DNA of 64,000 nucleotides. Source: Luteolibacter luteus. Lineage in GTDB: Bacteria; Verrucomicrobiota; Verrucomicrobiia; Verrucomicrobiales; Akkermansiaceae. Both the position numbers and the translations under genes were made by a program. The notes beneath the pieces are model-generated. The model worked only from the letters and a program-made list of their open reading frames with translations. It ran no database searches and was not told the origin of the DNA. Shown in pieces: positions 12,213-48,369 of this stretch. The stretch spans positions 2,356,001 through 2,420,000 of the forward strand of contig NZ_CP051774.1 of NCBI RefSeq assembly GCF_012913485.1, written 5' to 3'. Position 1 is the first letter of the stretch; each line of letters opens with the position of its first letter.

Positions 12213-12241
12213 TTGGACGCCGGGGCGGGCGCGAGGATGTT
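12213..12241 (+). promoter_or_regulatory. Candidate leaderless promoter of rhomboid gene
   Basis: TTGGAC (12213-12218), 17-nt spacer, GATGTT (12236-12241), then 6 nt to the GTG at 12248. The -10 is weak, but the layout matches the recurrent pattern of this window. Confidence 0.4.
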
Positions 12242-12247
12242 AGCCGC

Positions 12248-13021
12248 GTGATCTTTCCCATCAGCGACGACGACCGGCATCTGATGAGCCCGGCATGGAT
12301 TACCATCCTCCTCCTAGCGGCCAATGTGGTGGTGTTCGCAATGCAGCTGCTCGATCCCGGCCTGACCTATGGCTGGAGCGTGATCCCCAAGGAAATCGTC
12401 ACAGGCGTCGATCTCACCGACCCAGTGCTCATCAAGGTAGGCCAGCAAGTCGGCCAAATTCCGCAGCTTCCCGGTCCGGTTCCGATCTACCTCACGATCT
12501 TCTCCGCCATGTTCATGCACGGTGGTTGGGCGCACATCGGCGGAAACATGCTCTACCTTTGGATCTTCGGCGACAACGTGGAGCACCGCTTCGGCAGCTT
12601 GAAATTCCTGCTCTTTTATCTGATTAGCGGCATCGTCGCGACCTTCGCACAGATCGCCACGAATCCGGATAGCGTGATTCCGAATCTCGGTGCCTCCGGA
12701 GCGATCTCCGGAGTGTTGGGTGCTTACATGGTGCTCTTTCCGCGGAACATGGTGAACGCCATCTTCTTTTTCCGGATCGTCTCGCTGCCCGCGATCTTCG
12801 TGATCGGGATGTGGATCTTCCTGCAACTCGTCAATGGTGCGGGCTCGATCGCGCCGACTGCGGAAACAGGTGGTGGCGTGGCTTATGCCGCACACATCGG
12901 CGGCTTTGTTGCGGGCGTCGCGATGGGTTTCTTTGCGCGGATGGGCATGAAGAACCACGAGCCGCCCTCGGTCTTCCGGAGGATCTACGAGGACGAGCCG
13001 AAGGTGCGACGCTACTGGTGA
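12248..13021 (+). CDS. Rhomboid-family intramembrane serine protease
   Basis: 257 residues from GTG 12248; an open frame continues upstream inside the previous gene and is not used. Six or so hydrophobic helices are visible. 'SAMFMHGGWAHIGGNMLYLW' is the conserved loop-1/TM2 signature, 'GASGAISGVLGAYM' carries the catalytic Ser (about residue 148) and 'AYAAHIGGFVAGV' the catalytic His (about 215). Rhomboids cleave transmembrane helices; the substrate here is unknown. It stands alone between a hydrolase and a small secreted protein, with its own candidate promoter. Confidence 0.92.
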   Translation: MIFPISDDDRHLMSPAWITILLLAANVVVFAMQLLDPGLTYGWSVIPKEIVTGVDLTDPVLIKVGQQVGQIPQLPGPVPIYLTIFSAMFMHGGWAHIGGNMLYLWIFGDNVEHRFGSLKFLLFYLISGIVATFAQIATNPDSVIPNLGASGAISGVLGAYMVLFPRNMVNAIFFFRIVSLPAIFVIGMWIFLQLVNGAGSIAPTAETGGGVAYAAHIGGFVAGVAMGFFARMGMKNHEPPSVFRRIYEDEPKVRRYW

Positions 13022-13025
13022 GAAC

Positions 13026-13053
13026 TTGCGCAGCAGAGGCGAGCTGTCAGTCT
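13026..13053 (+). promoter_or_regulatory. Candidate leaderless promoter of 13061 gene
   Basis: TTGCGC (13026-13031), 16-nt spacer, CAGTCT (13048-13053), 7 nt, then ATG 13061. No Shine-Dalgarno sequence is present. Confidence 0.5.
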
Positions 13054-13060
13054 GGCTGAC

Positions 13061-13525
13061 ATGATCAAGCTCCTGCCCTTCCTGTTAGTCGCCTTCCTCG
13101 CAAGTCTCCCTCAAGGCCGCGCGGAAAGTGACAACCGCATCCGCGTGGAGGAGCTCAAGACGCAGCTTCCTATTGGCCTGCTCAAGATGCCGCTCGGAAC
13201 CGTAGTGACCGTGAAATGCCGGAGTTTCTTACCCACGGAAGAGGAGAGCCGGAACAAGGACGCTTTCTGGAAACGTCAGGTAGAAATCACCGAAATCGAC
13301 GGAAAAGCATTGGAGCCGCCGGTCAGGATCGAATGGGACACCTCTTCTCCGCTTCTCAAGAAGCCGCCGGTTGGCACCACGATTGAAGCCATCGGATACG
13401 AGTCGGGAAGCTTCCACGGCATCCCCGATGCAGCAGGTAAGGATTTGCCCCTCGCCTCAGGCATCCCCTTTGCCTTTCACAGCGGGTTTGTTCCCATGCA
13501 AGAAGTGAGACGGCCCGCCAACTAG
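13061..13525 (+). CDS. Small exported protein of unknown function
   Basis: 154 residues. The first 21 residues form a signal peptide ending near 'GRAES'. The mature part is a compact, probably beta-rich domain ('GTVVTVKCRSFLP', 'RQVEITEIDGKALEPPVRIE', 'GTTIEAIGYESGSF') suggestive of an OB-like or beta-barrel fold, but I recognise no family. It converges on the vsr gene 5 bp away. Confidence 0.7.
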   Translation: MIKLLPFLLVAFLASLPQGRAESDNRIRVEELKTQLPIGLLKMPLGTVVTVKCRSFLPTEEESRNKDAFWKRQVEITEIDGKALEPPVRIEWDTSSPLLKKPPVGTTIEAIGYESGSFHGIPDAAGKDLPLASGIPFAFHSGFVPMQEVRRPAN

Positions 13526-13530
13526 GCGAG

Positions 13531-14028
13531 TCACTCGGATTCCGCCACCTTGGAGGAAAAGGAGCGACGGGTTGTTGCCGGAGCTCCTACGACTCCAAGC
13601 GGCCGACCGATCAGCACCGGCAACCTCGCTTCCAACCACTCCCGCGCTCCCTTTGTCTTTAGCGCGCATGCCCAGAGCGTGACCACGTGCCAACCGAGGT
13701 TCCTCAGTTCACGCTCGACCCGGGCATCGCGAGCCTTGTTTCCCCCGATCTTCGCCTGCCACCACTCCGTCTTCGACTGCGGCATCTTGAAGTCCGGGCA
13801 GTGCTCGTGGCCGTGCCAGAAGCAACCGTGAACAAAGATCACCACGCCATACTTCGGCAGGACGAGATCCGGGCGGCCCGGCAACGATTTATTCTTCGGG
13901 CCATGGACCGTGAAGCGATAGCCCAGCCGGTGAAGCATCGAACGGACCGCCAGCTCCGGCTTGGTATTCCCGCCACGGATGCGTGACATCACCTCGGATC
14001 TCTTTTCCGCTGACCAGATGTCCGCCAT
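13531..14028 (-). CDS. vsr: Very short patch repair (Vsr) endonuclease
   Basis: 165 residues. Typical Vsr start 'DIWSAEKRSEVMSRIRGGNT' then 'ELAVRSMLHRLGYRF', the catalytic 'PGRPDLVLPKYGVVIFVHGC' with the active-site Asp, and the Zn/His-Cys region 'FWHGHEHC'. Vsr nicks 5' of T in T:G mismatches that arise from deamination of 5-methylcytosine. It normally accompanies a cytosine-C5 methyltransferase; none is next to it here, nor elsewhere in the window. TTGCTC 35 nt upstream of the start with CGCTAT after 16 nt is a weak leaderless promoter. Confidence 0.93.
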   Translation of the reverse strand: MADIWSAEKRSEVMSRIRGGNTKPELAVRSMLHRLGYRFTVHGPKNKSLPGRPDLVLPKYGVVIFVHGCFWHGHEHCPDFKMPQSKTEWWQAKIGGNKARDARVERELRNLGWHVVTLWACALKTKGAREWLEARLPVLIGRPLGVVGAPATTRRSFSSKVAESE

Positions 14029-14131
14029 AAGCCAAATAGCGTGGAGCCGTGACCTTGGAGCAAGGAGTTAGATGCTGGATGCCATGCGGAATTTCTGCCA
14101 GCCTCCTCCACTCCCACCGGAACCCAAGCCC

Positions 14132-14788
14132 ATGAACATCCTGCCCTCTTCCCGACGCCGCTTTTTGCGGAACTTCTCCCTGAGCGCTGCCGGCCTCTGG
14201 GTCCCCGGCGCCTTCGCGGAGGCGCTCACCCTCACGCCGAAGCAAACCGAGGGCCCCTTCTATCCGGTGGACCTGCCGCTGGATACCGACAACGATTTGA
14301 TCATCCTGAACGATGGCCTGACGCCCGCCCTCGGCAGTGTGACGCATCTCAGCGGTCGCGTGACCGACGCGAAGGGCGAGCCGATCCGCAACGCATTGGT
14401 CGAGATCTGGCAGGTCGATCACCACGGCGTCTATCTCCACAAGGGCAGCAGCGACCACGAAAAGCGCGACGCGAATTTCCAAGGCTTCGGCCGCTTCATG
14501 ACCGGCTCCAGCGGCGAGTATTACTTCCGCACCATCAAGCCGGTCGCTTATCCCGGCCGTACGCCCCACATCCATTTCGCCGTAAAGATGAAGGGCCGCG
14601 AGAAGTGGACGACCCAATGCTACATCAAGGGTGAGAAGCAGAATGAAGCGGACGGCGTGATCAAGGCGATCAAGGACGAGAAGCAACGCGCCTCGGTAAT
14701 CGTCGATTTCGCCCCGATCCCCGGCCTTGCCACCGGCGAGCTGGCGGCACGGTTCGACATCGTGATGGGATTCACCCCGGCGGGTTGA
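14132..14788 (+). CDS. Tat-exported intradiol ring-cleavage dioxygenase-like protein
   Basis: 218 residues from ATG 14132. The N-terminus 'SSRRRFLRNFSLSAAGLW' is a twin-arginine signal, so the folded metalloprotein is predicted to be exported. The core 'KQTEGPFYPVDLPLD', 'SGRVTDAKGEPIRNALVEIW', 'YYFRTIKPVAYPGRTPHIHF' matches protocatechuate/catechol 1,2-dioxygenase-type beta sandwiches; the 'AYPGRTPHIHF' Tyr and two His are the Fe(III) ligands, with a further Tyr in 'GVYLHKG'. Extracellular homologues exist with unclear substrates. It stops 4 nt from the convergent CDF gene. Confidence 0.87.
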   Translation: MNILPSSRRRFLRNFSLSAAGLWVPGAFAEALTLTPKQTEGPFYPVDLPLDTDNDLIILNDGLTPALGSVTHLSGRVTDAKGEPIRNALVEIWQVDHHGVYLHKGSSDHEKRDANFQGFGRFMTGSSGEYYFRTIKPVAYPGRTPHIHFAVKMKGREKWTTQCYIKGEKQNEADGVIKAIKDEKQRASVIVDFAPIPGLATGELAARFDIVMGFTPAG

Positions 14789-14792
14789 GCGC

Positions 14793-15701
14793 TCAGCGGA
14801 TCTCCCACTGCTCCTCGTGATCTTCCGCGGAGCGCGGCTCCAAATGAGAAATCACGCGGACATCCGGACCCAGCAGCGCCGCGACCCGCCCCTCCATGTC
14901 CGTGGCCACCTCATGGGCTTCCCGTACCGCCGTGCTATCCGGGAAAACCAGATGAAATTCCACCCAATGGGTCCGGCCCGAGTGGCGGTGCCGGAGATTG
15001 TGATAGGACAGTCCGTGCTCCGCGCAGTCGGCATCCAGGCACTCGCGGAGATTCTTTTCCACCGCCAGGTCGGCTTCATCCATCAGACCGCCGAGACTTT
15101 CCTTCATCAATCGTCCACCGGTCCAGATCAGCTTGATGGCCGCGATCACGGCAAAGATCGGATCCCACCACTTCCAGCCCGTGAAGTAGATCAGCGCCAG
15201 CGCGACAAGCAGCGCACCACTGGTCCAGACATCAGCCAGCACGTGCTCACCATTCGCGCGCAGCACCGCGGAGTTCCGCTTTTTTCCCACCCGCAGGAGG
15301 GCCGCACCCAGCACGAGATTCACCAGCGCGGCGGCAGCAGTGATGATCACGCCGATCCCCATGTTTGCAATCTGGCCGCCGACAAAGACCTGGCGGGCTG
15401 CCTCGTAGATGATGAGGAGACCGGCGGCGCTGATCATGGCCCCCTCGAAGCCGGAGGAAATGAACGCCACCTTGTCGTGGCCGAAATGATGGGTCTCGTC
15501 CGAAGGCTTGTGAGCGAGTCGCAGCGCCCACGCGGCGAATGCTACCGCCAGAACATGGGTCACGGATTCCGCGGCATCCGAATAAATCGCCGAGGAGCCC
15601 GTCAGACCGGCAGCCACAATCTTCGCGAAGAGCAGGACAACCGCCACCCCGAGCGAGAGGTTCATCACCTTCGATTGGTCTTCGGACAAACTCGCGCTCA
15701 C
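14793..15701 (-). CDS. Cation diffusion facilitator (CDF) metal transporter
   Basis: 302 residues from GTG 15701. The frame is open to 15785, but the shorter start gives the normal CDF length and lies 7 nt after a well-placed promoter. TM2 carries 'SSAIYSDAAESVTHVLAVAF' with the metal-binding DxxxS/D-type site, and TM5 'NGEHVLADVWTSGALLVALA' carries the second HxxxD. A cytosolic C-terminal domain follows ('YHNLRHRHSGRTHWVEFHLV', 'REAHEVATDMEGRVAALLG'). Family members exchange Zn, Fe, Mn or Co for protons; the ion cannot be assigned here. Confidence 0.88.
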   Translation of the reverse strand: MSASLSEDQSKVMNLSLGVAVVLLFAKIVAAGLTGSSAIYSDAAESVTHVLAVAFAAWALRLAHKPSDETHHFGHDKVAFISSGFEGAMISAAGLLIIYEAARQVFVGGQIANMGIGVIITAAAALVNLVLGAALLRVGKKRNSAVLRANGEHVLADVWTSGALLVALALIYFTGWKWWDPIFAVIAAIKLIWTGGRLMKESLGGLMDEADLAVEKNLRECLDADCAEHGLSYHNLRHRHSGRTHWVEFHLVFPDSTAVREAHEVATDMEGRVAALLGPDVRVISHLEPRSAEDHEEQWEIR

Positions 15702-15708
15702 GACGCAG

Positions 15709-15736
15709 AGCGTGGGAATTTCGCCCGCTCTGGCAA
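15709..15736 (-). promoter_or_regulatory. Candidate leaderless promoter of CDF gene
   Basis: Minus strand: TTGCCA (15736-15731), 16-nt spacer, CACGCT (15714-15709), 7 nt, then GTG 15701. It supports the shorter start. Confidence 0.48.
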
Positions 15737-15794
15737 CCCCTTCAAAAAGCCCTTCGCAGGGGGCGACATAACTGATTGAATCCACGGAGCCCCA

Positions 15795-16598
15795 GTGAAG
15801 CGCCTCGCCCTAACTTTCTTAGCCTTGGCTGCAATTCTTTGCGCTGTCTGCTGGCATTACCGCGGACAGATCGCCATGGCGCTGCGTGAACTGGACACCC
15901 CGCTGAGCCTTTCCGAAAGCCATCTGCCAAAACCGGACGCGGAGCGCTATGCGACCATGAAGGAAGATGTGGAGCGCTGGCGGAAAAATCTGGCCACAAA
16001 GCATGCCAAGGCAAAGACCGCAGCGGAAAAGGACAAGGTACTCGCGGAGGCCCGCGGCTTTCTGGAATCCGTGCTCCCGGAAATGATGCGCTGCTGGCTG
16101 GGCACACGCTGGGATTTCCACGGCACCAGCGAGGTGCCTGGCGAGGGAAAGATCGCCTGCGGCTACTTCGTCGCGACCGTGCTCCGGGATGCGGGATTCC
16201 GCGTCGATCGCTACAAGCTCGCACAACAGTCCTCGCAGAGCATCCTCCGCAGTTTCCTGCCACGGGAGGCTCTGAGCCTGCAGGTAGGCGTCCCCTATGA
16301 AAGCTATGCCGCCGGGCTGAAGAAGGCGGAGCACGGCATCCGTATCGTGGGCCTCGACAGCCATGTCGCCTTTCTCGTGACGGGAAATGACGATTTCCGC
16401 TTCATCCACTCCTCCGGCTCGAAGCCGTGGTGCGTGGTGGATGAAGGGGAAAACGATGCCGATGTCCTGCGCCGCTCAAACTACCGCGTGCAGGGGTGCC
16501 TGACTGCGGACAAGGAAGTGCTCCGCCGCTGGCTGGCGGGCAAGACCATCGAAGTCCGCGAAGATTCCTCCGCGACGGCGTCGGCGGCCCGCAATTGA
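15795..16598 (+). CDS. Membrane-anchored protein with papain-like (NlpC/P60-like) features
   Basis: 267 residues from GTG 15795. An N-terminal hydrophobic helix (about 1-25) serves as signal or anchor, followed by a charged helical stretch. The later part has 'GEGKIACGYFVATVLRDAGF' with a Cys at the start of a helix, then 'GLDSHVAFLVT' with a His before a strand and 'FRFIHSSG', the spacing of Cys and His seen in NlpC/P60 or CHAP-type hydrolases. The enzyme assignment is inference from these motifs only; it could act on peptidoglycan or be inactive. Confidence 0.55.
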   Translation: MKRLALTFLALAAILCAVCWHYRGQIAMALRELDTPLSLSESHLPKPDAERYATMKEDVERWRKNLATKHAKAKTAAEKDKVLAEARGFLESVLPEMMRCWLGTRWDFHGTSEVPGEGKIACGYFVATVLRDAGFRVDRYKLAQQSSQSILRSFLPREALSLQVGVPYESYAAGLKKAEHGIRIVGLDSHVAFLVTGNDDFRFIHSSGSKPWCVVDEGENDADVLRRSNYRVQGCLTADKEVLRRWLAGKTIEVREDSSATASAARN

Positions 16599-16639
16599 GG
16601 CGAAAGCGGAGGTCTCCCCGATCTCGGTAAGAGGGGTGG

Positions 16640-16688
16640 AAAGAAAAAGGATTGGAAATCGACGGTTTCCCATCAACTGCCAATCCTT
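16640..16688 (-). terminator. Probable terminator after TPR gene
   Basis: On the minus strand AAGGATTGG (16688-16680) pairs with CCAATCCTT (16655-16647), enclosing a smaller GGAAA/TTTCC hairpin; TTTTTCTTTCC follows. It is placed 40 nt after the TPR stop and could also slow transcription from the plus-strand side. Confidence 0.6.
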
Positions 16689-16727
16689 GTTATCCTAGCG
16701 TTTCGCTAAGCCTTGTATCGGCCGGTC

Positions 16728-17627
16728 CTAGCCAGCCACCGCACTCGCTCCGGCGCCGTGAAGGCGCGAGGAGATCGCGTCGGCATGGGCGTAGTCGCCC
16801 TCCGCACGAAGGACCGCGCAATAGTTGTCGGCCACCGCTTCAAGGTCGGATGCGTATTCGATGCCAAGAGCCTCGAAGCCGCTGATCGCCTTCTCGAAGT
16901 GGCGGCGTGCCCAAGCGCTGTCTCCCGTGCTAAGCAGGGCCAGCGCGAGGTTGTTGTGCGACTGGGCGGTGTCCGGGTGGATGTCCCCGAAGAGCTTGCG
17001 GCGAGCTTCCAGCGCCATCATGTGCATCTCCCGGGCCTGCTCGTGAAGGCCGGCCGATTGATAGAGAGCCCCGATGTTGTTGGAAACCGCGGCGGTTTCC
17101 TCATGATCCTGACCCAGCTCGCGATGGAGGATTTCCAGTGCGCGCAGGTATTCCGCCTCGGCACCTTCGGTATCACCGGCATTCCGCTTCAACACCGCCA
17201 GGTTGTTGCACATCGCGGCAATATCGAGGTCTGCCGGTGGATCGTTGGTTTCGAAGTAGTGGATTGCCTTCGACCAGAGTTCGGCAGCGCGCTCCGTATT
17301 TCCGAGTTGGTCGTGCACCGAGCCGTAGCCGGCATGCAGGCGACCGAGCTGGAGCAAGCGGTCCGGGCGATTGTCGAGCTGGTCGATGGCCTGCTTGTAA
17401 TCATCCCGGGCTTCTTCAAAGCGGCCGAGCAAACGATAAACGTCACCACGGACCTCCAGCGAGCTGGCGAACTCATCGATGCTCTCGAGGTCGCTGCTGA
17501 GGGTTTGCTGCGCCTTCAGGACGGCAGCGGTGGCGGCGTGGACGGCCTCGTCGAGGTCGCCCGCGGCAACCAGTTCATCGACGCGGCTGCGCAGAATGTG
17601 AATGAGTGTGGTGGTAGGTGAGTCCAT
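16728..17627 (-). CDS. Tetratricopeptide repeat protein
   Basis: 299 residues built from TPR units: 'RGDVYRLLGRFEEARDDYKQ', 'HAGYGSVHDQLGNTERAAEL', 'CNNLAVLKRNAGDTEGAEAE', 'SNNIGALYQSAGLHEQAREM', 'HNNLALALLSTGDSAWARRH'. The pattern is that of kinesin-light-chain-like TPRs. No signal peptide is visible, so it is a cytosolic scaffold. It starts 10 nt after recO ends and is probably transcribed with it, although TTGCAG-N16-TTTAAA inside the end of recO could act as a separate promoter. Partner unknown. Confidence 0.85.
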   Translation of the reverse strand: MDSPTTTLIHILRSRVDELVAAGDLDEAVHAATAAVLKAQQTLSSDLESIDEFASSLEVRGDVYRLLGRFEEARDDYKQAIDQLDNRPDRLLQLGRLHAGYGSVHDQLGNTERAAELWSKAIHYFETNDPPADLDIAAMCNNLAVLKRNAGDTEGAEAEYLRALEILHRELGQDHEETAAVSNNIGALYQSAGLHEQAREMHMMALEARRKLFGDIHPDTAQSHNNLALALLSTGDSAWARRHFEKAISGFEALGIEYASDLEAVADNYCAVLRAEGDYAHADAISSRLHGAGASAVAG

Positions 17628-17636
17628 GGCTTGTAT

Positions 17637-18215
17637 TTACTTTAAATCACCGCTTTGGGTTTCTGCAACGGGGAATTCCGCCGCAGGTGAAAGTCTTTCC
17701 AACAATTGAGCGCGCTGGGGGGGAAGAGAACCGAGGGCATCCCGCAGGGAGGTCGTGGCTTGGCGCCGCTCCTTGGAAATGCCGAGTTTACGCGCCATTT
17801 CCTGCTCGAAATGCTGCATCGCCTTGACCGAAGCACCACGAGTCGAGACGTAATCAAGGGCCCGCCGCAACAGATCGCTCAATTCCGGCTCGGGGTGATC
17901 ACGCTCAACGGCAAGCTCCAACAGGCGGCAGCAATAACCCGACAAAAGCATTGCATTGTAATCACCTCGGATCGATTCCCGGGTGTTCATGACGCTCACT
18001 TCCCGGAGGCTATGGAGTTCGCCGCTGCGAGCCCTTGCCCAGGTTATTTCCGCGTCAAAGAAGAGATCCAGCTTCCCCGCAAAGGGGCTTTTAGGGCTCC
18101 TCGCGCCCTTTGCCACCGTTTTGATCAGACCATGGCCGTCCGTGAACCAGTGGACGATCCAACTGGTATCGGTCAGCTTGGTGAGCCGGATCAGCGTGCC
18201 GTGGCAATGCTCCAT
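17637..18215 (-). CDS. recO: DNA repair protein RecO
   Basis: 192 residues, shorter than the usual 230-250. N-terminal OB fold: 'GTLIRLTKLTDTSWIVHWFT', 'GLIKTVAKGARSPKSPFAGK', 'LDLFFDAEI', 'LHSLREVSVM'. The helical C-terminal domain is present but truncated, without the four-Cys zinc finger of some members. RecO loads RecA with RecR in the RecFOR pathway. No obvious ribosome-binding site precedes the ATG. Confidence 0.86.
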   Translation of the reverse strand: MEHCHGTLIRLTKLTDTSWIVHWFTDGHGLIKTVAKGARSPKSPFAGKLDLFFDAEITWARARSGELHSLREVSVMNTRESIRGDYNAMLLSGYCCRLLELAVERDHPEPELSDLLRRALDYVSTRGASVKAMQHFEQEMARKLGISKERRQATTSLRDALGSLPPQRAQLLERLSPAAEFPVAETQSGDLK

Positions 18216-18354
18216 GCGAGGTTAAAAACCCGGCGACGCCCTATTGGTTTCACCGAATGCCCGCCAACTTGCGCAGAATCGGACACCGCGCAAGTCAACC
18301 CTTCCAAGAAACTTCGCCGAAATTCTCATGCCCGAGCCGCAAAGCTCGGATCCG

Positions 18355-19446: not shown

Positions 19447-19502
19447 CCACGGCCCCGCCCCCGGTGTCACGAACGATGCACCGGGACGAGGCCAGCACGC
19501 AC

Positions 19503-19946: not shown

Positions 19947-20036
19947 AGTCCCACCTCTACTCCGGATGGCGACAAATCGCAAGGAATCGCGGGAGCCCGC
20001 GGCGAAGTTTTTTTGATAGAGCGGGACCATTCACCC

Positions 20037-31256: not shown

Positions 31257-31284
31257 TTGGAAAGCCCGAATAATGCGGCAGAAA
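31257..31284 (+). promoter_or_regulatory. Candidate leaderless promoter of BFN gene
   Basis: TTGGAA (31257-31262), 16-nt spacer, CAGAAA (31279-31284), 7 nt, then GTG 31292. It lies just outside the dispersed element. Confidence 0.42.
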
Positions 31285-31845: not shown

Positions 31846-31873
31846 TTGCGCCATGGGTGAGCACTCCTAGCTT
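31846..31873 (+). promoter_or_regulatory. Candidate leaderless promoter of M29-like gene
   Basis: TTGCGC (31846-31851), 16-nt spacer, TAGCTT (31868-31873), 8 nt, then ATG 31882. Confidence 0.55.
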
Positions 31874-33101: not shown

Positions 33102-33218
33102 TTCACCGCCAAGGCGCGGAGTCGTCCGGTTCACACAAAAAAGCCCAAGGTCCTGACTCGCCTGTCAGATTTTCATCGAGCTTTTTGAACTTGGCGCACT
33201 TGGCATCTTGGCGGTGAA
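33102..33218. repeat. Inverted-repeat intergenic element (CTTGGCGGTGAA ends)
   Basis: TTCACCGCCAAG (33102-33113) and CTTGGCGGTGAA (33207-33218) are perfect 12-nt inverted ends 93 nt apart. The right end also contains three direct CTTGGC copies ('AACTTGGCGCACTTGGCATC'). Repeats of this wording are scattered in many bacterial genomes as non-coding MITE-like elements (general recollection, not searched). It fills the space between the M29-like gene and the cupin gene and supplies a TTGGCA 34 nt before the cupin start. Confidence 0.7.
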
Positions 33219-37444: not shown

Positions 37445-37473
37445 ACCATGCACGCGGGAAGCTGGCTCGCCAA
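37445..37473 (-). promoter_or_regulatory. Candidate leaderless promoter of queG
   Basis: Minus strand: TTGGCG (37473-37468), 17-nt spacer, CATGGT (37450-37445), 6 nt to the ATG. Confidence 0.45.
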
Positions 37474-37488: not shown

Positions 37489-37516
37489 TTGACAGGGGAG
37501 GATGCCGGGATTTCGC
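37489..37516 (+). promoter_or_regulatory. Candidate leaderless promoter of EEP hydrolase
   Basis: Consensus TTGACA (37489-37494), 16-nt spacer, TTTCGC (37511-37516), 8 nt, then ATG 37525. It lies back to back with the queG promoter. Confidence 0.5.
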
Positions 37517-37524
37517 TCGGCGGC

Positions 37525-39013: not shown

Positions 39014-39041
39014 ACCCTAGCGACGAGCAGGCACAACGCAA
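39014..39041 (-). promoter_or_regulatory. Candidate leaderless promoter of aroK
   Basis: Minus strand: TTGCGT (39041-39036), 16-nt spacer, TAGGGT (39019-39014), 6 nt, then ATG 39007. Confidence 0.55.
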
Positions 39042-39130
39042 AGATTCAAGTATGCATTTGTAAATACCTGTCGCCGCAGCCCGGTAAATACGGGCTCGCC
39101 GGGGCGGCTCCCTGACGCTAAGCCTGCGGC

Positions 39131-40187: not shown

Positions 40188-40385
40188 CCGGGGACCTCTG
40201 GAATCCGGCGCCTGTTCCGCCTGTTAAAACAAGAAAATTAACAGGCGGCGTCAGCCTGTGAGTGCGCTGGCAGTTGACTGGTTTGGTCAGTGGTTTCGCG
40301 GATCGATTTTGCGAGAGCTCCGATGCAGGCGGGAAAGGCATGAGGGGAAGCATCGCCCAGGTAGAGGGTGGGTTTCTACTGCCAC
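40188..40385 (+). repeat. Dispersed structured element, copy B
   Basis: Starts with CCGGGGACCT (40188-40197), then 'GCCTGTTCCGCCTGTTAAAA', a variant 'CAAGAAAATTAACAGGCG', 20 nt, TGGCAGT (40268-40274), about 100 variable nt, and 'TTTCTACTGCCAC' ending about 40385. The TGGCAGT and ACTGCCA blocks are exact reverse complements. Plus orientation, intergenic. Confidence 0.85.
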
Positions 40386-40444
40386 TGGTGATTGATGGAA
40401 GATTGGCGATTTTCCCGCGGCGGGTGACGAGTTTGTCCGGCAAC

Positions 40445-40472
40445 TTGCATGTGTTAGAATCCCGCCTAGGTT
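40445..40472 (+). promoter_or_regulatory. Candidate leaderless promoter of 40483 gene
   Basis: TTGCAT (40445-40450), 16-nt spacer, TAGGTT (40467-40472), 10 nt, then ATG 40483. A second TAGAAT at 40455 with TTGTCC 16 nt upstream could give a longer leader. Confidence 0.45.
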
Positions 40473-40482
40473 CGGGGTTGCC

Positions 40483-41657: not shown

Positions 41658-41667
41658 CCTCCCCGCC

Positions 41668-42591
41668 ATGCTCACCGTCACCGGACTCGTCAAAAATTTC
41701 CGCGGGAAGCCCGCGCTACAGGACGTCTCATTCAATGTGGAGCGCGGCGAGATCCACGGGCTGCTGGGGCATAACGGTGCCGGAAAAAGCACCACCTTGG
41801 GAATCATTCTCGGCATGGTGGAACCGGACGCGGGGGAAGCCAGCATCGGGGGAATTTCCGTGCAGCGCGACCAAGCTTCTGCGCTGAGGCAAGTCGGTGC
41901 GATTTTCGAAAGCCCCGCCTTTTACGAATATCTGAGCGGCTGGGAGAACCTGAAGATCCTGGCTGGCTACTCCGGTGTCTTCAATGAACGCGCGGCACTG
42001 AAAACCGTCGCCCGGGTCGGCCTGATGAAGGCGATCAAGAACAAGGTCGGCACCTACTCGCACGGCATGCGGCAGCGGCTGGCGCTGGCCCAAGCGCTCT
42101 TGCCCGAGCCCCAAGTCCTCCTTCTGGACGAACCAACCGACGGCCTCGATCCGGAGGGGATCAAATGGTTCCGCGACTTCATCCTGAACCTGCGTGAAGA
42201 GCGCGGGATGACGGTGCTCTTCAATTCCCACCTGCTCGCGGAGGTGGAGCAGATGTGCGACCGGGTGACGATCCTGCGCGAAGGGAAGCTTGTCTATGAA
42301 GGCACGCTGAACTCCCTGAGAGAGGAAGCTCCTGTCTATGAGGTGAGCTTGGAGCCATGGGAAGGAGCCAGGGAGTTTTTGGAGCTGAACGGCGTCCAGA
42401 TCCTTGGCCCGGGACGGATCGCGCTGCCGCCGGAAATGGATCCGGCGATTATCGTCGCGGCCCTCGTCGGCAGCGGCATCCGCGTCTCCGCCTTCGCGCC
42501 GGTGCGCCGGTCCTTGGAAGACCTTTACCTCGAAATCACCAGCTCCAAGCCATCCAAGGAAGAACCTCTCCCCTTCCTGCCCATCGCATGA
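41668..42591 (+). CDS. ABC transporter ATP-binding protein
   Basis: 307 residues. Walker A 'LLGHNGAGKSTTLGIILGM', Q-loop region 'VGAIFESPAFYEYLSGWENL', signature 'YSHGMRQRLALAQALL' and Walker B 'VLLLDEPTDGLDPEG' are all intact. The C-terminal extension matches CcmA/ABC-2-type export ATPases. It overlaps the permease gene by 4 nt. TAGCCT 7 nt before the ATG resembles the local -10 motif. Confidence 0.95.
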   Translation: MLTVTGLVKNFRGKPALQDVSFNVERGEIHGLLGHNGAGKSTTLGIILGMVEPDAGEASIGGISVQRDQASALRQVGAIFESPAFYEYLSGWENLKILAGYSGVFNERAALKTVARVGLMKAIKNKVGTYSHGMRQRLALAQALLPEPQVLLLDEPTDGLDPEGIKWFRDFILNLREERGMTVLFNSHLLAEVEQMCDRVTILREGKLVYEGTLNSLREEAPVYEVSLEPWEGAREFLELNGVQILGPGRIALPPEMDPAIIVAALVGSGIRVSAFAPVRRSLEDLYLEITSSKPSKEEPLPFLPIA

Positions 42592-43436
42592 ATTTCCTCC
42601 GCCAGCTCAAGGGCGAACTCCGCAAGCTCTTCGCCCGCCGCCGCACCTACATTGGTTACGGGGTGTTCCTGGCGATGGAGCTCATCATCCTGTGGGTCTT
42701 CAAACTGGAGCGCAGCCAGCGGGCGATGCGGGAACTGGTGGAGCGGAACGGCCTTGGTTTCGACGAATACTACAGCTCCCTGACAATCACCCACTGGATC
42801 ATGAGCCTGAGCATGTTCTTGCTGGGCTCGATCTACTTCGCCCTCGTCGCCGGGGATATCGTGGCGAAGGAGTCGGAAGACGGGAATTTGCGGCTGGTCC
42901 TGGCCCGCCCGGTTTCGCGCCTGCGGATCCTTCTTCTGAAGTACGTGGCGATCGCGCTCTACACGATCACCTTCGTGCTCTTCGTGGGGGTCACCGGCTA
43001 TGCCATGGCCGTGGCGGCGCTGGGTGTGGATGGCGGGCTCTTCGTGTGGAATTACGAGATGAAGGTCTTCGCCTTCTATCCGACATGGGGCGAGGGAATC
43101 ACCCGCGTGGCCATGGAAGGCCTGGCGATGGGAATCAGCATGGTCACCCTGTCCTCGATCGCCTTCATGTTTTCCTGCTTCAAGATGAAGCCGGCGGCGG
43201 CGACGATCATGGCGCTGAGCGTCCTGTTCGTGGACTTCGTGCTGCTGCGCTTTCCCTTCTTCCAGCCGTATCAGGAGTACTTCGTGACGTGGCGGATGTC
43301 CTGCTGCATCTACGTGATGGAGAACACGATCTCTTGGGCGAAGCTGGCAATGTCCTACGGCTTCCTTTTCGGGCTGAATGCGACGCTGTTCCTGATCGGC
43401 TACACGGCCTTCCGGCTGCGGGATTTCAAAACCTGA
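42588..43436 (+). CDS. ABC-2 type permease
   Basis: 282 residues with about six hydrophobic helices: 'YIGYGVFLAMELIILWVF', 'WIMSLSMFLLGSIYFALVAG', 'YVAIALYTITFVLFVGVTGY', 'GLAMGISMVTLSSIAFMFSC', 'IMALSVLFVDFVLLRF', 'YGFLFGLNATLFLIGYTAF'. 'GDIVAKESEDGNLRLVLARP' is typical of ABC-2 permeases of the NatB/YhaP kind. Together with the upstream ATPase it forms an exporter of unknown substrate. Confidence 0.9.
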   Translation: MNFLRQLKGELRKLFARRRTYIGYGVFLAMELIILWVFKLERSQRAMRELVERNGLGFDEYYSSLTITHWIMSLSMFLLGSIYFALVAGDIVAKESEDGNLRLVLARPVSRLRILLLKYVAIALYTITFVLFVGVTGYAMAVAALGVDGGLFVWNYEMKVFAFYPTWGEGITRVAMEGLAMGISMVTLSSIAFMFSCFKMKPAAATIMALSVLFVDFVLLRFPFFQPYQEYFVTWRMSCCIYVMENTISWAKLAMSYGFLFGLNATLFLIGYTAFRLRDFKT

Positions 43437-43660
43437 AAAAGGAAGCGGGCGATCAGTGAGACCGGGGGTCGCCTTCCCCAGAATCGCCGACCGCCCGCAG
43501 AGAGGGAGATCTGATCTTGTGTTTTTGGAGCACCCTTGCGGGAACAGGTGCAGAATGCCACGAAGGAGCGGAACTTCGTATTCCATGATCGCGTAGGGGT
43601 CCCACGCTTTCCCGATTTTCACCGTTTTCAGGTGCCGCGGCAGGGGTGAGACTGGCGGCG

Positions 43661-44962
43661 ATGCGCGAGGACACCCGACGCTGGATCGAGGCCGACAAGG
43701 CACACTGCTGGCACCCCTTCACGCCCCAAGCGGCGTGGGAGGCGGGCGAGCCGCTGGTGCTGGTGCGCGGCGAGGGGGCGTGGTTGTGGGACTCGGAGGG
43801 GCGGAAATATCTCGATGGGAACTCCTCCATCTGGACGAACATCCATGGCCACAACCATCCGGCCCTGAACGAGGCCCTGACCCGGCAGCTGACAGAGGTG
43901 GCACACGTCTCCTACCTCGGCTTCGCAAATCCCCGGGCGAGCGAACTGGCGGCGCGGCTGAGCGGGCTCTTCCCGCCCGGGACCTTGGAGCGGGTTTTCT
44001 TCTCCGACGACGGATCCACCGCGATCGAGTGCGCGATGAAGATGGCGATCCAGTACCGCCAGCTCACGGGCGAGCCCGAGCGCACCGGCTTCATCGCCTT
44101 CGACCAAGCCTACCATGGCGACACATTGGGTGCGGCATCGCTTGGCGGTGTTTCCCGCTTTCACGACCGCTTCCGGAAACACGGGGCGACCGTGACCTTT
44201 GTCAGCGGCATGGAGGCGCTGCGGGAGCTGCCATGGGAGGCGGTGAAAGGATGCGCGGCCGTGGTGATCGAGCCGCTGATGCAAGGCGTGAACGAGATGC
44301 GTCCGTGGCCTGCCGGCATGCTCCGCGAGCTGCGCGAGTGGTGCGACGCCCACGACGTGCACCTGATGCTGGACGAGGTGATGACGGGCTTCGGCCGCAC
44401 GGGGAAAATGTTCGCCTGCCTGCACGAGGAGGTGACACCGGATTACCTCTGCGTGGCGAAGGGGATCACCGGCGGCTACCTGCCGATGGCGGCAACGCTG
44501 ACCACAGGCCATGTTTACGAGGCTTTCCTCGGGGAGGATGACCGGGCTTTCTACTACGGTCATAGTTACACGGCAAACCCCCTGGGCTGCGCTCTCGCAC
44601 TGGCGAGCCTCGATATCTTCGAAGCAGAGAAGACGCTGGAGAATCTCCAGCCGAAGATCGCGCGGATGGCGGAGCTGCTGGCAGGACTGAAGGCGGAGTC
44701 GCGCTTCGTTCACGAGATCCGCCAATGCGGCTTCGTCGCAGGCATCGAGCTTCGGCAAGCGGATGGCACGCGCTTTCCGGTACAACTTCAAACCGGCAGC
44801 AAGGTGTGCCTTGCGGCACGCGAACACGGACTGCTGACCCGGCCGGTCCGCGATACGATCGTGCTGATGCCACCGCTGAGCATCAGCACCGCGGAACTGG
44901 TTCACGCGGTGGATGCGATCTCCGCTGCAATCAATGCCGTCTCAACGGGTCAAGCCGAGTAG
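43661..44962 (+). CDS. bioA: Adenosylmethionine-8-amino-7-oxononanoate aminotransferase
   Basis: 433 residues from ATG 43661 (an in-frame GTG at 43646 is possible). 'KAHCWHPFTPQAAWEAGEPL', 'YLDGNSSIWTNIHGHNHPAL' and 'QAYHGDTLGAASLGGVSRFH' are typical BioA blocks. 'LMLDEVMTGFGRTGKMF' holds the PLP Asp, 'VAKGITGGYLPMAATL' the Schiff-base Lys, and 'YGHSYTANPLGCALALAS' follows. It makes 7,8-diaminopelargonate in biotin synthesis. No other bio genes are next to it. Confidence 0.94.
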   Translation: MREDTRRWIEADKAHCWHPFTPQAAWEAGEPLVLVRGEGAWLWDSEGRKYLDGNSSIWTNIHGHNHPALNEALTRQLTEVAHVSYLGFANPRASELAARLSGLFPPGTLERVFFSDDGSTAIECAMKMAIQYRQLTGEPERTGFIAFDQAYHGDTLGAASLGGVSRFHDRFRKHGATVTFVSGMEALRELPWEAVKGCAAVVIEPLMQGVNEMRPWPAGMLRELREWCDAHDVHLMLDEVMTGFGRTGKMFACLHEEVTPDYLCVAKGITGGYLPMAATLTTGHVYEAFLGEDDRAFYYGHSYTANPLGCALALASLDIFEAEKTLENLQPKIARMAELLAGLKAESRFVHEIRQCGFVAGIELRQADGTRFPVQLQTGSKVCLAAREHGLLTRPVRDTIVLMPPLSISTAELVHAVDAISAAINAVSTGQAE

Positions 44963-44969
44963 GGCGGCT

Positions 44970-45524
44970 TCATGCCGCAGCAAGGATATCCGAGAGCGTC
45001 CTTCCAATTCTCACCTTCTTCTTGAGAACGAAGCGCTTCTCACCGCTGCTACCGGAGGGAGGGATTTGGTAGTAAATCGTCATGATCACCGCCGAGCCCG
45101 CCAAGACGCGATCCGCTCCCGGTAGCCCTTTGAAATCCACGCGGATCGCTCCCCTATGGAAATCCGAATGTTCATCCACCGAGGAGATCTCCACCTTCTT
45201 GCGGATCATGAGCGTGGCAGAAGCGCCAGACTTCTCATCGGAGATCTCGACGCGATCCATCCAGATGCCAGCCTTCCTCCTGGCGTAGAAGAAGACGGCC
45301 CCGCTTTGGTCAGACTGCCATGCCAATTCCCTCACCCTCGGCAGGAAGAGGATGCCCGAGTCAACGAGTTTGGGACTTTCTTCAAATACCCCATCGGGTA
45401 ACTCCGGACCCCAATATCCTTGGTATTTGTGGGTTTCGGGGTGTTCGAAATGTTGAAACCCAGAGACGCAGCCAGAAAGAACACCCAAGGCCAAGAGGCA
45501 ACAAGTGGCTCTGATCAATCTCAT
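44970..45524 (-). CDS. Lipoprotein of unknown function
   Basis: 184 residues from ATG 45524, with GGAG 5 nt upstream. Signal with lipobox 'LSGC'. The mature part is beta-rich ('GIWMDRVEISDEKSGASATL', 'HRGAIRVDFKGLPGADRVLA', 'MTIYYQIPPSG') and may be a small sandwich domain. I recognise no family. It follows the HAD gene by 11 nt on the same strand, so they share a transcript. Confidence 0.75.
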   Translation of the reverse strand: MRLIRATCCLLALGVLSGCVSGFQHFEHPETHKYQGYWGPELPDGVFEESPKLVDSGILFLPRVRELAWQSDQSGAVFFYARRKAGIWMDRVEISDEKSGASATLMIRKKVEISSVDEHSDFHRGAIRVDFKGLPGADRVLAGSAVIMTIYYQIPPSGSSGEKRFVLKKKVRIGRTLSDILAAA

Positions 45525-45535
45525 CTGCACTCCAA

Positions 45536-46198
45536 CTACCAGAGATCCCGTAGATAGGAAACGTTGATCTCCTCCAGGGAGCTAACGATACGGTCCGGAT
45601 TTTCCGGAGCGAGGGCCTCGGCAGGATGAGTGGTGGTGACGGCGATGGATTTCATGCCGCCGGCACGCGCCGCACGGATGCCGACCTGGGCGTCCTCGAT
45701 CACGACGCAGGAAGCGGGATCCGCGCCGAGCTTTGCCGCGGCCTTCAGGAATACCTCGGGGTCCGGCTTGCCACGACTGACGTCTTCGGAGGCGGCGATG
45801 TCATTGAAGTAAGCGGCAAGACCGGTGAGCTCGAGCACGCACTCGACATTCGGACGTGGGGTCGAGGTGCCAATCGCGCAAGGGATACCATTCGCTTTCA
45901 GGTCTTCCAGAAGAGCAACCACACCGGGAAGCGGCTCGATGCCTTCCGCCTTCAGAATATCCCGATACAAGCTCTCCTTGCGATCCCCCAAAAGTTGGAT
46001 GCGTTCCTTGTCTCCTTCCTGAGCCCAGCCCAGGAAAGGCAGGATGCTTTCGTTCCGCTGGCCGAAGGTGGAATGGAATGTTTCCTGGCTAAGCTCCTGC
46101 CCCAGCTCCGCAGCAAGCGCGAACCAGGAACGTCCGTGCGCTTCGTGGGAGTCGATCACCACGCCATCGAAATCAAAGAGGACCGCTGCAAGAGGCAT
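45536..46198 (-). CDS. HAD-family phosphatase (beta-phosphoglucomutase/phosphoglycolate phosphatase-like)
   Basis: 220 residues. HAD motif I 'VLFDFDGVVIDSHEAH' (DxD), motif II 'AIGTSTPRPNVE' (Ser/Thr), motif III Lys in 'VSRGKPDPEVFLKAAAKLG', motif IV 'VVIEDAQVGIRAARAGGMKS'. The helical cap is of C1 type. Substrate could be a sugar phosphate; not determinable. A TTGCCA/CAATCA promoter lies upstream. Confidence 0.92.
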   Translation of the reverse strand: MPLAAVLFDFDGVVIDSHEAHGRSWFALAAELGQELSQETFHSTFGQRNESILPFLGWAQEGDKERIQLLGDRKESLYRDILKAEGIEPLPGVVALLEDLKANGIPCAIGTSTPRPNVECVLELTGLAAYFNDIAASEDVSRGKPDPEVFLKAAAKLGADPASCVVIEDAQVGIRAARAGGMKSIAVTTTHPAEALAPENPDRIVSSLEEINVSYLRDLW

Positions 46199-46204
46199 GC
46201 GGGA

Positions 46205-46232
46205 TGATTGGAGCGGACGGGGCTTCTGGCAA
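46205..46232 (-). promoter_or_regulatory. Candidate leaderless promoter of HAD gene
   Basis: Minus strand: TTGCCA (46232-46227), 16-nt spacer, CAATCA (46210-46205), 6 nt, ATG 46198. Confidence 0.48.
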
Positions 46233-46236
46233 GCGG

Positions 46237-46953
46237 TCACGCTTTCGCCCCCGATTGGCCCGGCTCTTCCTTCAAGATCCGCTGCAAAAGCTCGGTCTGG
46301 TACTGCTGGATCTCCATCAGCCGCTCCGAGTGCGTGAGCAGGAGATGATCGATTTTCTCATGCAGGTGCCGGATCTCGAGCTCCGCCTTCAAGTTGATCT
46401 GGTAGTCCTGCACCGCGCGCTTCCGGTCATGAGTCTCCTGGCGGTTCTGGCTCATCATGATGATGGGAGCCTGCAGGGCCGCGACGCAGGAGAGCAGGAG
46501 ATTAAGCAGGATGAAGGGATAGGGATCGACGGCCTTGCCACCGAAGAGCTGCAGGGCATTCGCGCTGATCCACAGCACGAGGAAGCCGGTGAAGATGAGG
46601 ATGAAGGCCCAGCTCCCGCCGAAGTCGGCGATCTTGTCCGAAAGCCGCTCCCCGAAGGTGGAGGCTTCGTCTTCCTCGTCCTCGCTCTGGGGGCGCTCGG
46701 TGAGCAGCTCCCGGCCGCGCAGGCTATCGATCACCTCGCGCTCGAGTTCGGTGATTTCCCCGATCTCGCTTTCCAGTGCCGTCTCGATGTACCCCGACCT
46801 CAAGTCATCTAGGGCGGTGCGGGAGATCCAGGCGTCCTCCGGCAGTTCGGGGTAGCGGTGGCGGATGTAGCCGTGCAGGAGCGGCCGCAGCACCCGCATC
46901 GGCACGGCGGCATTGTCCGGCACTTCCTGGCCGGTGATGGCACATTTTTTCAT
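46237..46953 (-). CDS. DUF1003 membrane protein
   Basis: 238 residues from ATG 46953. A short Cys motif at the N-terminus ('MKKCAITGQEV'), a helical region, then 'LSDKIADFGGSWAFILIFTG' and two helices ('FLVLWISANALQLF', 'FILLNLLLSCVAALQAPIIM') with 'MSQNRQETHDRKRAVQDYQI', the DUF1003 hallmark, and a long C-terminal coiled coil. Function unknown. Divergent from gltX, with both candidate promoters between the two starts. Confidence 0.92.
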   Translation of the reverse strand: MKKCAITGQEVPDNAAVPMRVLRPLLHGYIRHRYPELPEDAWISRTALDDLRSGYIETALESEIGEITELEREVIDSLRGRELLTERPQSEDEEDEASTFGERLSDKIADFGGSWAFILIFTGFLVLWISANALQLFGGKAVDPYPFILLNLLLSCVAALQAPIIMMSQNRQETHDRKRAVQDYQINLKAELEIRHLHEKIDHLLLTHSERLMEIQQYQTELLQRILKEEPGQSGAKA

Positions 46954-46961
46954 GCGGATGT

Positions 46962-46989
46962 ATCCTGCCGGGTGGATTCCGGCGGTCAA
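46962..46989 (-). promoter_or_regulatory. Candidate leaderless promoter of DUF1003 gene
   Basis: Minus strand: TTGACC (46989-46984), 16-nt spacer, CAGGAT (46967-46962), 8 nt, ATG 46953. Confidence 0.55.
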
Positions 46990-47018
46990 GGCGGCGGGAT
47001 TTTCCCCTGTCTCCGCCC

Positions 47019-47046
47019 TTGGCGAGCGGCGCGGCGCCCCTACACT
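47019..47046 (+). promoter_or_regulatory. Candidate leaderless promoter of gltX
   Basis: TTGGCG (47019-47024), 16-nt spacer, TACACT (47041-47046), 9 nt, ATG 47056. No Shine-Dalgarno sequence. Confidence 0.55.
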
Positions 47047-47055
47047 GCGCCTCCC

Positions 47056-48369
47056 ATGTCCGTCCGCACGCGATTCGCACCTTCGCCCACCGGCTATCTC
47101 CACGTCGGCGGGGCACGCACCGCCCTCTTCAATTACCTCTTCGCCCGGAAGCACGACGGCACCTTCGTGCTGCGCGTAGAGGACACGGATGAGGCCCGCA
47201 ACACCCAAGCCGCGCGTGATGCGATCTTTTCCGGCATGAGCTGGCTCGGTCTGGATTGGGACGAGGGCGAGGGCAAGGGTGGCGACTACGGTCCATACAA
47301 CCAGAGCGAGCGGAAGGAAAACTATGACCGTTGGTTCGAAGTGCTGCGCGAAAAAGGCCGTGTCTACGAGGACGGCGGCGCATGGCGTTTCCGTTTCGAG
47401 CGCAAGCCGGTGACGATGAACGATCTGGTCTGCGGCGAAGTAACGATCGACTACCGCGACGAATCCAACACGCCGGACATGGTGATCCGTCGCTCGGACG
47501 GATCTTACGTGTTCCACTTCGTGAACGTGGTGGATGACCTCGAAATGAAGATCAGCCATGTGATCCGCGGCGAGGACCACCTGATGAACACGCCGAAGCA
47601 CCTGCAGCTTTTCGAGGCTTTCGGTGCCCAGGCGCCGCAGTACGGGCACATCCCGCTGATCATGAATCCGAACGGGTCCAAAATGTCGAAGCGCGATGTG
47701 GGAGCGGCAGTGGCCGACTATCCACGCCAAGGCTTCCTGCCGCTGGCGGTGGTGAATTTCATCGCACTGCTGGGCTGGTCGTCGAAGTCGGATGAGGAGA
47801 TTTTCACCTTGGAGGAACTGGTGGAGCGTTTCTCGCTAGAGGCGGTGAACCGTGCGCCGGCGCGCTTCGACGCGGAGAAGTGCGCGTGGGTCAACCAACA
47901 GCACCTGCTGAAGCTGGATGGCCCCGCCTTCGCGGAAGCAGCGAAGCCCTTCGTGGAGCAAGCCGGACTGCCGGTAAATGGGAACTACCCGGCAATCGCC
48001 GCGGTGGTGCGAGAAAAGGTGCGCCTCCTTTCCGAAGTGCCGGATGCGATCGGCTTCCTGCTTCAGGATGATTTCGGCTATGATGCGGATGCCCTCGAGA
48101 AGGTTCGTGGCAATGCCGCGGCGAAGGACCTGCTCAGTGCCTTGGCCACGGATTTCGAGAGCCTCTCCGAGTGGTCGGCCGATGCGGCGAAGCAGCAGAT
48201 CGGGGAGACGGCCAAGGCTGCCGGAGCCAAGCCCGGTCAGCTGATGTTCCCGGTGCGGGTGGCTCTGAGCGGCAAGGCCGGAGGGCCCGATCTGGGCGAC
48301 ATCCTCGGACTTCTCGGGAAGGAACGGAGTGTGGCACGACTGCGCCGCTGCGTCGCCGAACTCGGGTAA
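47056..48369 (+). CDS. gltX: Glutamate--tRNA ligase
   Basis: 437 residues from ATG 47056, a little shorter than many (about 470). Class I signature 'FAPSPTGYLHVGGARTALFN' (HVGG variant of HIGH), 'LRVEDTDEARNTQAARDAIF', 'DYRDESNTPDMVIRRSDGSY', 'VIRGEDHLMNTPKHLQL' and 'SKMSKRDVGAAV' (KMSKS loop). The C-terminal anticodon-binding region is present. It charges tRNA-Glu. Followed by a terminator. Confidence 0.96.
   Translation: MSVRTRFAPSPTGYLHVGGARTALFNYLFARKHDGTFVLRVEDTDEARNTQAARDAIFSGMSWLGLDWDEGEGKGGDYGPYNQSERKENYDRWFEVLREKGRVYEDGGAWRFRFERKPVTMNDLVCGEVTIDYRDESNTPDMVIRRSDGSYVFHFVNVVDDLEMKISHVIRGEDHLMNTPKHLQLFEAFGAQAPQYGHIPLIMNPNGSKMSKRDVGAAVADYPRQGFLPLAVVNFIALLGWSSKSDEEIFTLEELVERFSLEAVNRAPARFDAEKCAWVNQQHLLKLDGPAFAEAAKPFVEQAGLPVNGNYPAIAAVVREKVRLLSEVPDAIGFLLQDDFGYDADALEKVRGNAAAKDLLSALATDFESLSEWSADAAKQQIGETAKAAGAKPGQLMFPVRVALSGKAGGPDLGDILGLLGKERSVARLRRCVAELG

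Follow-up and report, generated by a model that had tools for sequence, protein, structure and literature searches.

Transcripts that begin at the start codon are an established phenomenon, with Akkermansia as a precedent. As far as the available parts of the sources go, Cappable-seq of Akkermansia muciniphila placed 10% of the high-confidence transcription start sites (TSS) at start codons (PMC4782308), and leaderless TA-led genes, with TANNNT ∼12 nucleotides (nt) before the start, are known in many bacteria, including Actinobacteria and Deinococcus-Thermus; the main text of the latter paper mentions neither Verrucomicrobia nor Akkermansia (PMC3160421). Initiation without a Shine-Dalgarno (SD) sequence despite an intact anti-SD was reported for Bacteroidetes (PMC6847099), Akkermansia was counted among SD-scarce organisms, with its CCUCC conserved (PMC10783764), and C directly before the start codon was described in SD-poor Chlorobi, Deinococcus-Thermus, Bacteroidetes, Cyanobacteria and some Proteobacteria (PMC5397173). 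No further genome-wide study of leaderless promoters in Verrucomicrobia or Akkermansia was found in the literature, as judged by titles and the beginnings of abstracts. Here we analysed a window of 64,000 nt of Luteolibacter luteus (positions 2356001–2420000 of a genome of 6,412,079 bases in one contig). The original prediction for this window described TTG at 34–38 nt and a −10-like hexamer ending 6–10 nt before many start codons, a layout in which RNA would begin at the codon or within a few nt of it.

Our analysis suggested that sigma-70-like promoters most likely abut the starts of ∼28% of the leading genes of this genome, which would give leaderless or near-leaderless mRNAs. The genome belongs to the same phylum as A. 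muciniphila and, by its gltX relatives, apparently to the same or a neighbouring family, but it is larger (6.4 Mb), and the evidence is experimental there and computed here; the share here (∼28%) refers to leading genes whose promoter lies at −20 to −11, a quantity other than the 10% of TSS in Akkermansia (PMC4782308). As in TA-led genes, the −10 element lay ∼12 nt upstream, exceeded dinucleotide shuffles and resembled the high-GC variant with uninformative middle positions (PMC3160421). Unlike in TA-led genes, no SD excess was found in the tested gene sets, and the first −10 base was C as often as T. The lack of SD excess and the CCTCC kept in 16S were shared with Bacteroidetes and SD-scarce Akkermansia (PMC6847099, PMC10783764), whereas here A at −3 was lacking and C was found at −1 and −2. 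This C enrichment adjoining the start codon resembled that of the SD-poor phyla; it reached ∼70% at −1 and was seen in samples of two families, and the word Verrucomicrobia does not occur in that paper (PMC5397173). The combination of the C context with SD loss was the less expected part of the findings. With an estimate drawn from one fifth of the genome, the results add to Akkermansia a relative with a large genome as a case of leaderless promoter placement, and they suggest that several families of the class have given up SD use, with the anti-SD intact where it was checked, in the window's genome. They offer a testable case of SD-less start selection and a start rule (C at −1/−2, promoter at −12/−35) from which both the annotation of starts and the design of expression in Verrucomicrobiota would benefit.

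A recurrent TTG/YANNNT layout upstream of leading genes

The genome (GC ∼61%, 0.610 in the sample) was sampled as 60 stretches of 20 kb, 59 evenly spaced and one around rpsB, giving 1.2 Mb or about one fifth of the total. Genes were called by codon score and start-codon type only, ignoring upstream sequence, which yielded 965 genes including those of the window. Genes after a same-strand gap of <25 nt were regarded as operon followers; same-strand gaps of 25–59 nt, and in later counts divergent gaps of <40 nt, fell into neither the leading nor the follower class, and genes adjoining stretch ends were excluded from start counts. A gene score cut of >40 was used for the position-free motif search and its shuffle comparison (453 leading genes), and one of 35 for the pattern test, per-gene posteriors, held-out mixture, wide scan and the motif searches on relative loci and pooled congeners. 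No cut was applied to the counts of A at −3 (593 leading genes, 184 followers) and of start context (132 and 63 unambiguous starts, respectively). Some leading genes were misfiled, for example 16728–17627, which was scored as leading though it lies just downstream of an uncalled recO.

The original prediction named absence of a TTG excess at −34 to −38 over shuffled sequence as grounds for abandoning it. Such an excess was found in the 1.2 Mb outside the window: TTG occurred there in 85 of 449 leading genes, compared with 38.9 ± 4.7 in shuffled upstreams and 33 after a 30-nt shift. YANNNT ending 6–10 nt before the start was similarly enriched (89/449 versus 39.1 ± 5.8 shuffled and 36 shifted), and the joint pattern occurred in 18/449, versus 1.4 ± 1.3 (maximum 5) in shuffles and 4 after the shift. 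Among leading genes of the window scoring >35, the joint pattern was present in 6/34, versus a mean of 0.1 and a maximum of 3 in 100 dinucleotide shuffles. It was found in none of 146 operon followers and at only 1 of 856 internal ATGs; in followers TTG was at its shuffled level (8/146 versus 9.1), and YANNNT alone showed a mild excess (17/146 versus 9.5, sd 3.1). The stricter TANNNT ending 5–12 nt before the start was observed in 0.10 of 561 genes versus 0.03 in shifted windows. The layout is thus genuine, with strong statistical support, and recurs throughout the sampled parts of the genome, chance being ruled out by the shuffles, shifted upstreams, followers and internal ATGs. As in the definition of TA-led genes, the −10 element ∼12 nt before the start exceeded that of shuffled upstreams, and the signal was concentrated in transcript-leading genes.

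A position-blind motif search by expectation-maximization (EM) with an order-3 Markov background arrived, with three of the four seeds, at TTGcCa-N16/17/18-YAngCT, with 0.86 of the weight on spacers of 16–18 nt. Two hexamers, TTGNNN and YANNNT, separated by 16–18 nt are the arrangement of a sigma-70-type promoter. Seeding with an empty −35 gave a different, weaker solution (log-likelihood 27.2 versus 63.0), and an earlier search with zero-order background drifted to low-complexity GAA/TTC and was replaced by the order-3 background. The log-likelihood of 63.0 compared with at most 27.5 in 20 shuffled sets. Sorted by the start of the −10 hexamer, the posterior peaked at −12 (12.3) and −13 (10.9), was 8.5 at −14 and 4.8 at −18, and fell to 4.2 at −11 and 1.1 at −10, with a mean of ∼2.2 elsewhere. 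The mass at −18 to −11 was 60.5 of 199.3, compared with 4.0–18.1 in the 20 shuffled sets. The usual distance from the hexamer to the transcription start is 6 nt, so that a hexamer at −12 would put the start precisely on the codon and one at −18 would leave a leader of 6 nt; of the near mass, 27.4/60.5 lay at −13 to −11 (no leader) and 33.1/60.5 at −18 to −14 (leader of ∼1–6 nt). The −12/−13 peak and the drop at −10 are what would be expected of transcription beginning on the start codon or a few nt upstream of it.

In a held-out two-fold mixture, a promoter at −20 to −11 was assigned to a fraction of 0.285 (bootstrap 0.224–0.361) of the leading genes, and one elsewhere within −75 to a fraction of 0.182 (0.106–0.267); the near fraction was 0.067 (0–0.147) in followers and 0 at internal ATGs. 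Between about one quarter and one third of the leading genes thus very probably have a promoter that abuts the start codon, as estimated from upstream sequence. The proposed mechanism is as follows. Sigma-70-like promoters (TTGcCa, 16–18 nt, YAnnnT), with the −10 hexamer beginning 11–20 nt before the start codon in ∼28% of leading genes, would be active and read by a sigma factor; RNA polymerase would take the purine of ATG/GTG, or a base at most ∼8 nt upstream, as its starting point; and ribosomes would load at the 5′-terminal AUG of the resulting leaderless or near-leaderless mRNAs.

Shine-Dalgarno words and the bases before the start codon

SD-like 4-mers at −18 to −4 were found in 105 of 853 genes of this genome (0.12), compared with 0.15 in the control window, whereas the same gene caller gave 99/173 (0.57) versus 0.10 for E. 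coli. SD-like 5-mers at −18 to −5 were found in 27 of 729 genes, versus 33–41 in four control windows, and none of the gene sets tested in this genome had an SD excess. SD as the mechanism for the remaining genes was rejected because the 5-mers did not exceed the control windows. For the same reason, the contrast that the original prediction drew with SD-bearing genes at 3342, 6181, 7527 and 19946 did not hold: with SD words at background, the SD-like runs at these starts are at chance level. Both 16S copies end GGATCACCTCCTTT (GGCTGGATCACCTCCTTTCT), leaving the anti-SD intact, and one bS21 gene is present. We observed that the anti-SD CACCTCCTTT is kept in the 16S 3′ ends of both rRNA copies (L138, L139) despite the missing SD excess.

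At 227 unambiguous starts, C was found at −1 in 0.70 and at −2 in 0.49, with a background of 0.31 (p = 5.5e-33 for −1); in a set of 196 starts that had no competing start codon the values were 0.72 and 0.50. Leading genes and followers were alike in this respect. For all starts, C at −1/−2 was 0.59/0.47 in 146 followers and 0.59/0.50 in 483 leading genes, and for unambiguous starts it was 0.70/0.57 in 63 followers and 0.70/0.51 in 132 leading genes, so the context is not a promoter property. Internal ATGs showed C at 0.42 and 0.29, respectively, which was attributed to codon use, and CC preceded 0.11 of 856 internal ATGs versus 0.38–0.43 of unambiguous starts. A Kozak-like A at −3 of the Bacteroidetes type was observed neither in leading genes (0.16 of 593) nor in followers (0.18 of 184), the values at unambiguous starts being 0.17 of 132 and 0.29 of 63.

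C at −1 was more frequent in genes whose predicted transcription start falls precisely on the codon (38/52 versus 180/320, p = 0.023), which fits a pyrimidine-purine initiator. C at −2 was found in 20/52 genes with the −10 at −12/−11 versus 51/91 with the −10 at −13 to −20 (p = 0.056), a mere hint that the −2 base matters only when it lies inside the RNA. According to the available part of a study on kasugamycin, the −1 and −2 bases lie in the mRNA channel at the E site, the −1 base being decisive for this drug (PMC8794815); the ribosome could therefore possibly read these bases. Leadered and operon-internal genes would also be translated without SD, and the C context is a putative, likely aid to their start selection. 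Pairing of CC(−2,−1) with G37 G38 of initiator tRNA was considered and rejected: in the one match found the loop is CTCATAA, with AA at what we take to be positions 37–38. A loose tRNA pattern was useless, with 418 matches (198 forward, 220 reverse). The anticodon stem of this initiator tRNA (L207 1471–1547, − strand) is TCAGG/CCTGA, and one of its three conserved loop-adjoining G-C pairs, presumably 29–41, is A-U.

Related genomes and rival explanations

Among the matches listed, gltX was 82–86% identical to the four best relatives, which include Haloferula sp. BvORR071 and metagenome-assembled genomes of Akkermansiaceae/Verrucomicrobiaceae. EM on 278 leading genes from 51 relative loci, which share the gltX region so that their genes are partly orthologous repeats and many are gltX orthologues, gave a like motif and peak (12.4 at −12, 9.2 at −15). 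Other genomes were surveyed with the own-genome model by the ratio of promoter mass at −18 to −11 to that at −75 to −25 (gene score cut 20, length ≥240 nt, loci L205 and L206 left out; the Verrucomicrobiota samples outside the window's family, f1, had 25–98 leading genes each). The ratio was 3.4 in the own genome, 2.8 in five congeners and 2.1 in two same-family genomes, and a peak was also shown by G048 of family f4 (3.4) and G043 of f5 (2.2); it was lacking in G072 of f3 (0.6), G036 of another class (0.7) and E. coli (0.7). TTG at −33 to −38 was raised over positions further upstream in f5 (0.25 versus 0.05) and f2 (0.26 versus 0.06).

SD-like words and their background were near equal in samples of f1 (0.12/0.15, 0.10/0.15, 0.20/0.19), f4 (0.13/0.08, 0.15/0.15), f5 (0.12/0.10), f2 (0.07/0.12) and f6 (0.15/0.15), and SD-like words were present in f3 (0.30/0.14), G036 (0.54/0.20) and G076, also of another class (0.29/0.10). 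C at −1 of unambiguous starts was high in f1 (0.65–0.74) and f4 (0.70 of 33, 0.79 of 14), with no clear increase in f5 (0.33 of 18), f2 (0.33 of 27), f3 (0.17 of 23), f6 (0.40 of 10), G036 (0.40 of 5), G076 (0.15 of 13) or E. coli (0.32 of 59). SD loss, extending also to the f2 and f5 samples, thus appears wider than the C context. It is tentatively suggested, as a conjecture of rather low probability, that start selection was rebuilt without SD in f1 and f4, where promoters would abut many leading starts and C(−2)C(−1)-AUG might be a ribosome-read, Kozak-like determinant replacing SD despite an intact anti-SD.

Individual sites were retained in some orthologues. Upstream of the DUF1003 gene, L144 and L156 diverge widely from the window yet retain TTGACC-N16-CAGGAT, 8 and 7 nt from ATG. 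The gltX layout was retained in L144, L156 and L160, with a weaker −35 in L147, L004 and L005, and the −10 part was present in 15 of 34 gltX orthologues (shuffled 6.3), these being the distinct ones among 54 matches with the start codon at the aligned place.

Several observations weigh against the proposed mechanism. The strict joint pattern was found in only 5/34 gltX orthologues (shuffled mean 0.4); in orthologues of gene 53020 (12 of 36 matches, counted likewise) it was found in 1/12 (shuffled 0.2) and the −10 part in 4/12 (2.3); and the HAD orthologues in L156 and L144 retain TTGCC with no YANNNT. In the survey, no clear peak was seen in G075 of f4 (1.0), G031 of f2 (1.2) or G066 of f6 (1.0), while the SD-using G076 scored 2.0 (29 genes, GC 0.38). 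EM on pooled congeners went to another motif without a peak, though the own-genome model shows one there. The held-out halves differed (near fraction 0.147 versus 0.389), the motif of one half being poorer (TTGana/CnngaT); the −35 half is loosely defined, and the density in the window (6/34) exceeds that in the rest of the sample (18/449). A wide scan of the 257 genes having ≥150 nt of noncoding upstream sequence showed excess also at −35 to −20 and −75 to −51, and the best site with a log-likelihood ratio >6 lay upstream of −20 in 25/36 genes. The idea that almost all promoters abut starts was dropped after this 330-nt scan. Leadered promoters therefore exist, and the near layout is frequent, not universal.

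Since SD is absent, another translation signal is needed, and TTG/YANNNT might be such a signal, for example pyrimidine-rich S1 sites, instead of a promoter. This is very improbable: followers need translation and not a promoter, yet none of them carries the joint layout; C(−1), a plausible translation signal, is equally strong in followers and leading genes; and the distance between the two halves is the spacing of sigma-70 promoters. It is more improbable still that a loose TTG in short upstreams, seen with hindsight, reflects chance or an artefact of start calling. The earlier reader had indeed picked starts with the pattern in view, the −35 is degenerate, and the caller misplaces some starts and overlooked RecO 17637–18215 and DUF1003 46953. 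However, the tested starts were chosen without upstream sequence, and shuffles, shifted windows, followers and internal ATGs failed to reproduce the pattern, by which this explanation is statistically refuted.

Ordinary promoters with short functional leaders of 5–20 nt, arising from a shorter discriminator or a true start codon further downstream, are unlikely but deserve more weight than the two explanations above. The near sites are spread over −20 to −11, with more than half of their mass at −18 to −14, and the higher frequency of C(−2) in genes with the −10 at −13 to −20 is as if −2 lay in the RNA of that class. The sharp fall at −10 and the maximum at −12/−13, in contrast, fit starts on the codon itself, and promoters that directly abut the start codon are preferred as the explanation.

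Sites and neighbouring observations in the window

The TTG at −34 to −38 claimed by the original prediction was borne out for all 14 named starts (13 plus vsr), whereas the full layout, TTG-N3-N16/17-YANNNT-N6..10-start, was found at eight of them and not at the other six (Table 1). For vsr, described as a weak fit, the TTG and the −10 part were found, but the spacer, measured by eye, is too short for the joint pattern. The −10 parts claimed for LysR and tsaC both begin at −12. The earlier gene names agree with Pfam for rhomboid, CDF, BFN, cupin, QueG, EEP, shikimate kinase, HAD, DUF1003, Vsr, LysR and Sua5/TsaC; no Pfam match was found for 13061, the M29-like gene 31882 or 40483.

Table 1. 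Predicted promoter sites and partial sites before start codons of the window; joint, strict joint TTG/YANNNT pattern
Gene	Start	Site	Strand	−35	Spacer	−10	Posterior	Remarks
gltX	ATG 47056	47019..47046	+	TTGGCG (47019–47024)	N16	TACACT (47041–47046)	0.96	joint
DUF1003 gene	ATG 46953	46962..46989	−	TTGACC	N16	CAGGAT		joint; Pfam DUF1003
HAD gene	ATG 46198	46205..46232	−	TTGCCA	N16	CAATCA (imperfect)	0.94	TTG only, no strict YANNNT
gene 40483	40483	40445..40472	+	TTGCAT	N16	TAGGTT	0.98	joint
aroK	ATG 39007	39014..39041	−	TTGCGT	N16	TAGGGT	0.97	joint; Pfam SKI
tsaC/Sua5	GTG 39131	39096..39124	+	TCGCCG (weak)	N17	TAAGCC	0.88	
EEP gene	ATG 37525	37489..37517	+	TTGACA	N17	TTCGCT	0.92	TTG only, no strict YANNNT
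queG	ATG 37438	37445..37473	−	TTGGCG	N17	CATGGT	0.97	joint
cupin gene	ATG 33234	33200..33205	+	TTGGCA at −34				weak; no YANNNT at right distance
gene 31882	31882	31846..31873	+	TTGCGC	N16	TAGCTT	0.86	joint
BFN gene	GTG 31292	31257..31284	+	TTGGAA	N16	CAGAAA (weak)	0.40	weak; no strict YANNNT
CDF transporter	GTG 15701	15709..15736	−	TTGCCA	N16	CACGCT	0.99	joint; Pfam Cation_efflux
vsr	ATG 14028	14038..14063	−	TTG at −35	14 nt (too short)	CACGCT at −15		weak
gene 13061	13061	13026..13053	+	TTGCGC	N16	CAGTCT		joint
rhomboid	GTG 12248	12213..12241	+	TTGGAC	N17	GATGTT (weak, by eye)		TTG only, no strict YANNNT
LysR gene	ATG 1663	1670..1698	−	TGGCCA (weak)	N17	TAGACC	0.98	Pfam LysR

A RecO gene at 17637–18215 (− strand) was overlooked by the codon-score caller. 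Gene 16728–17627, directly after recO, has a near-promoter posterior of 0.90, which may reflect an internal promoter or a false positive. A long open frame at 46255–46812 (+ strand), antisense to the DUF1003 gene 46237–46953 (− strand), has a good codon score and misled the gene caller; at this locus the Pfam match is on the minus strand only (46237–46953), with none for the antisense frame. By eye, TGTTAGA before the start at 56296 (+ strand) is kept in the congener loci L155 and L143, 8 nt from ATG in the window and 11 nt there, and it is possibly a promoter with a changing leader length.

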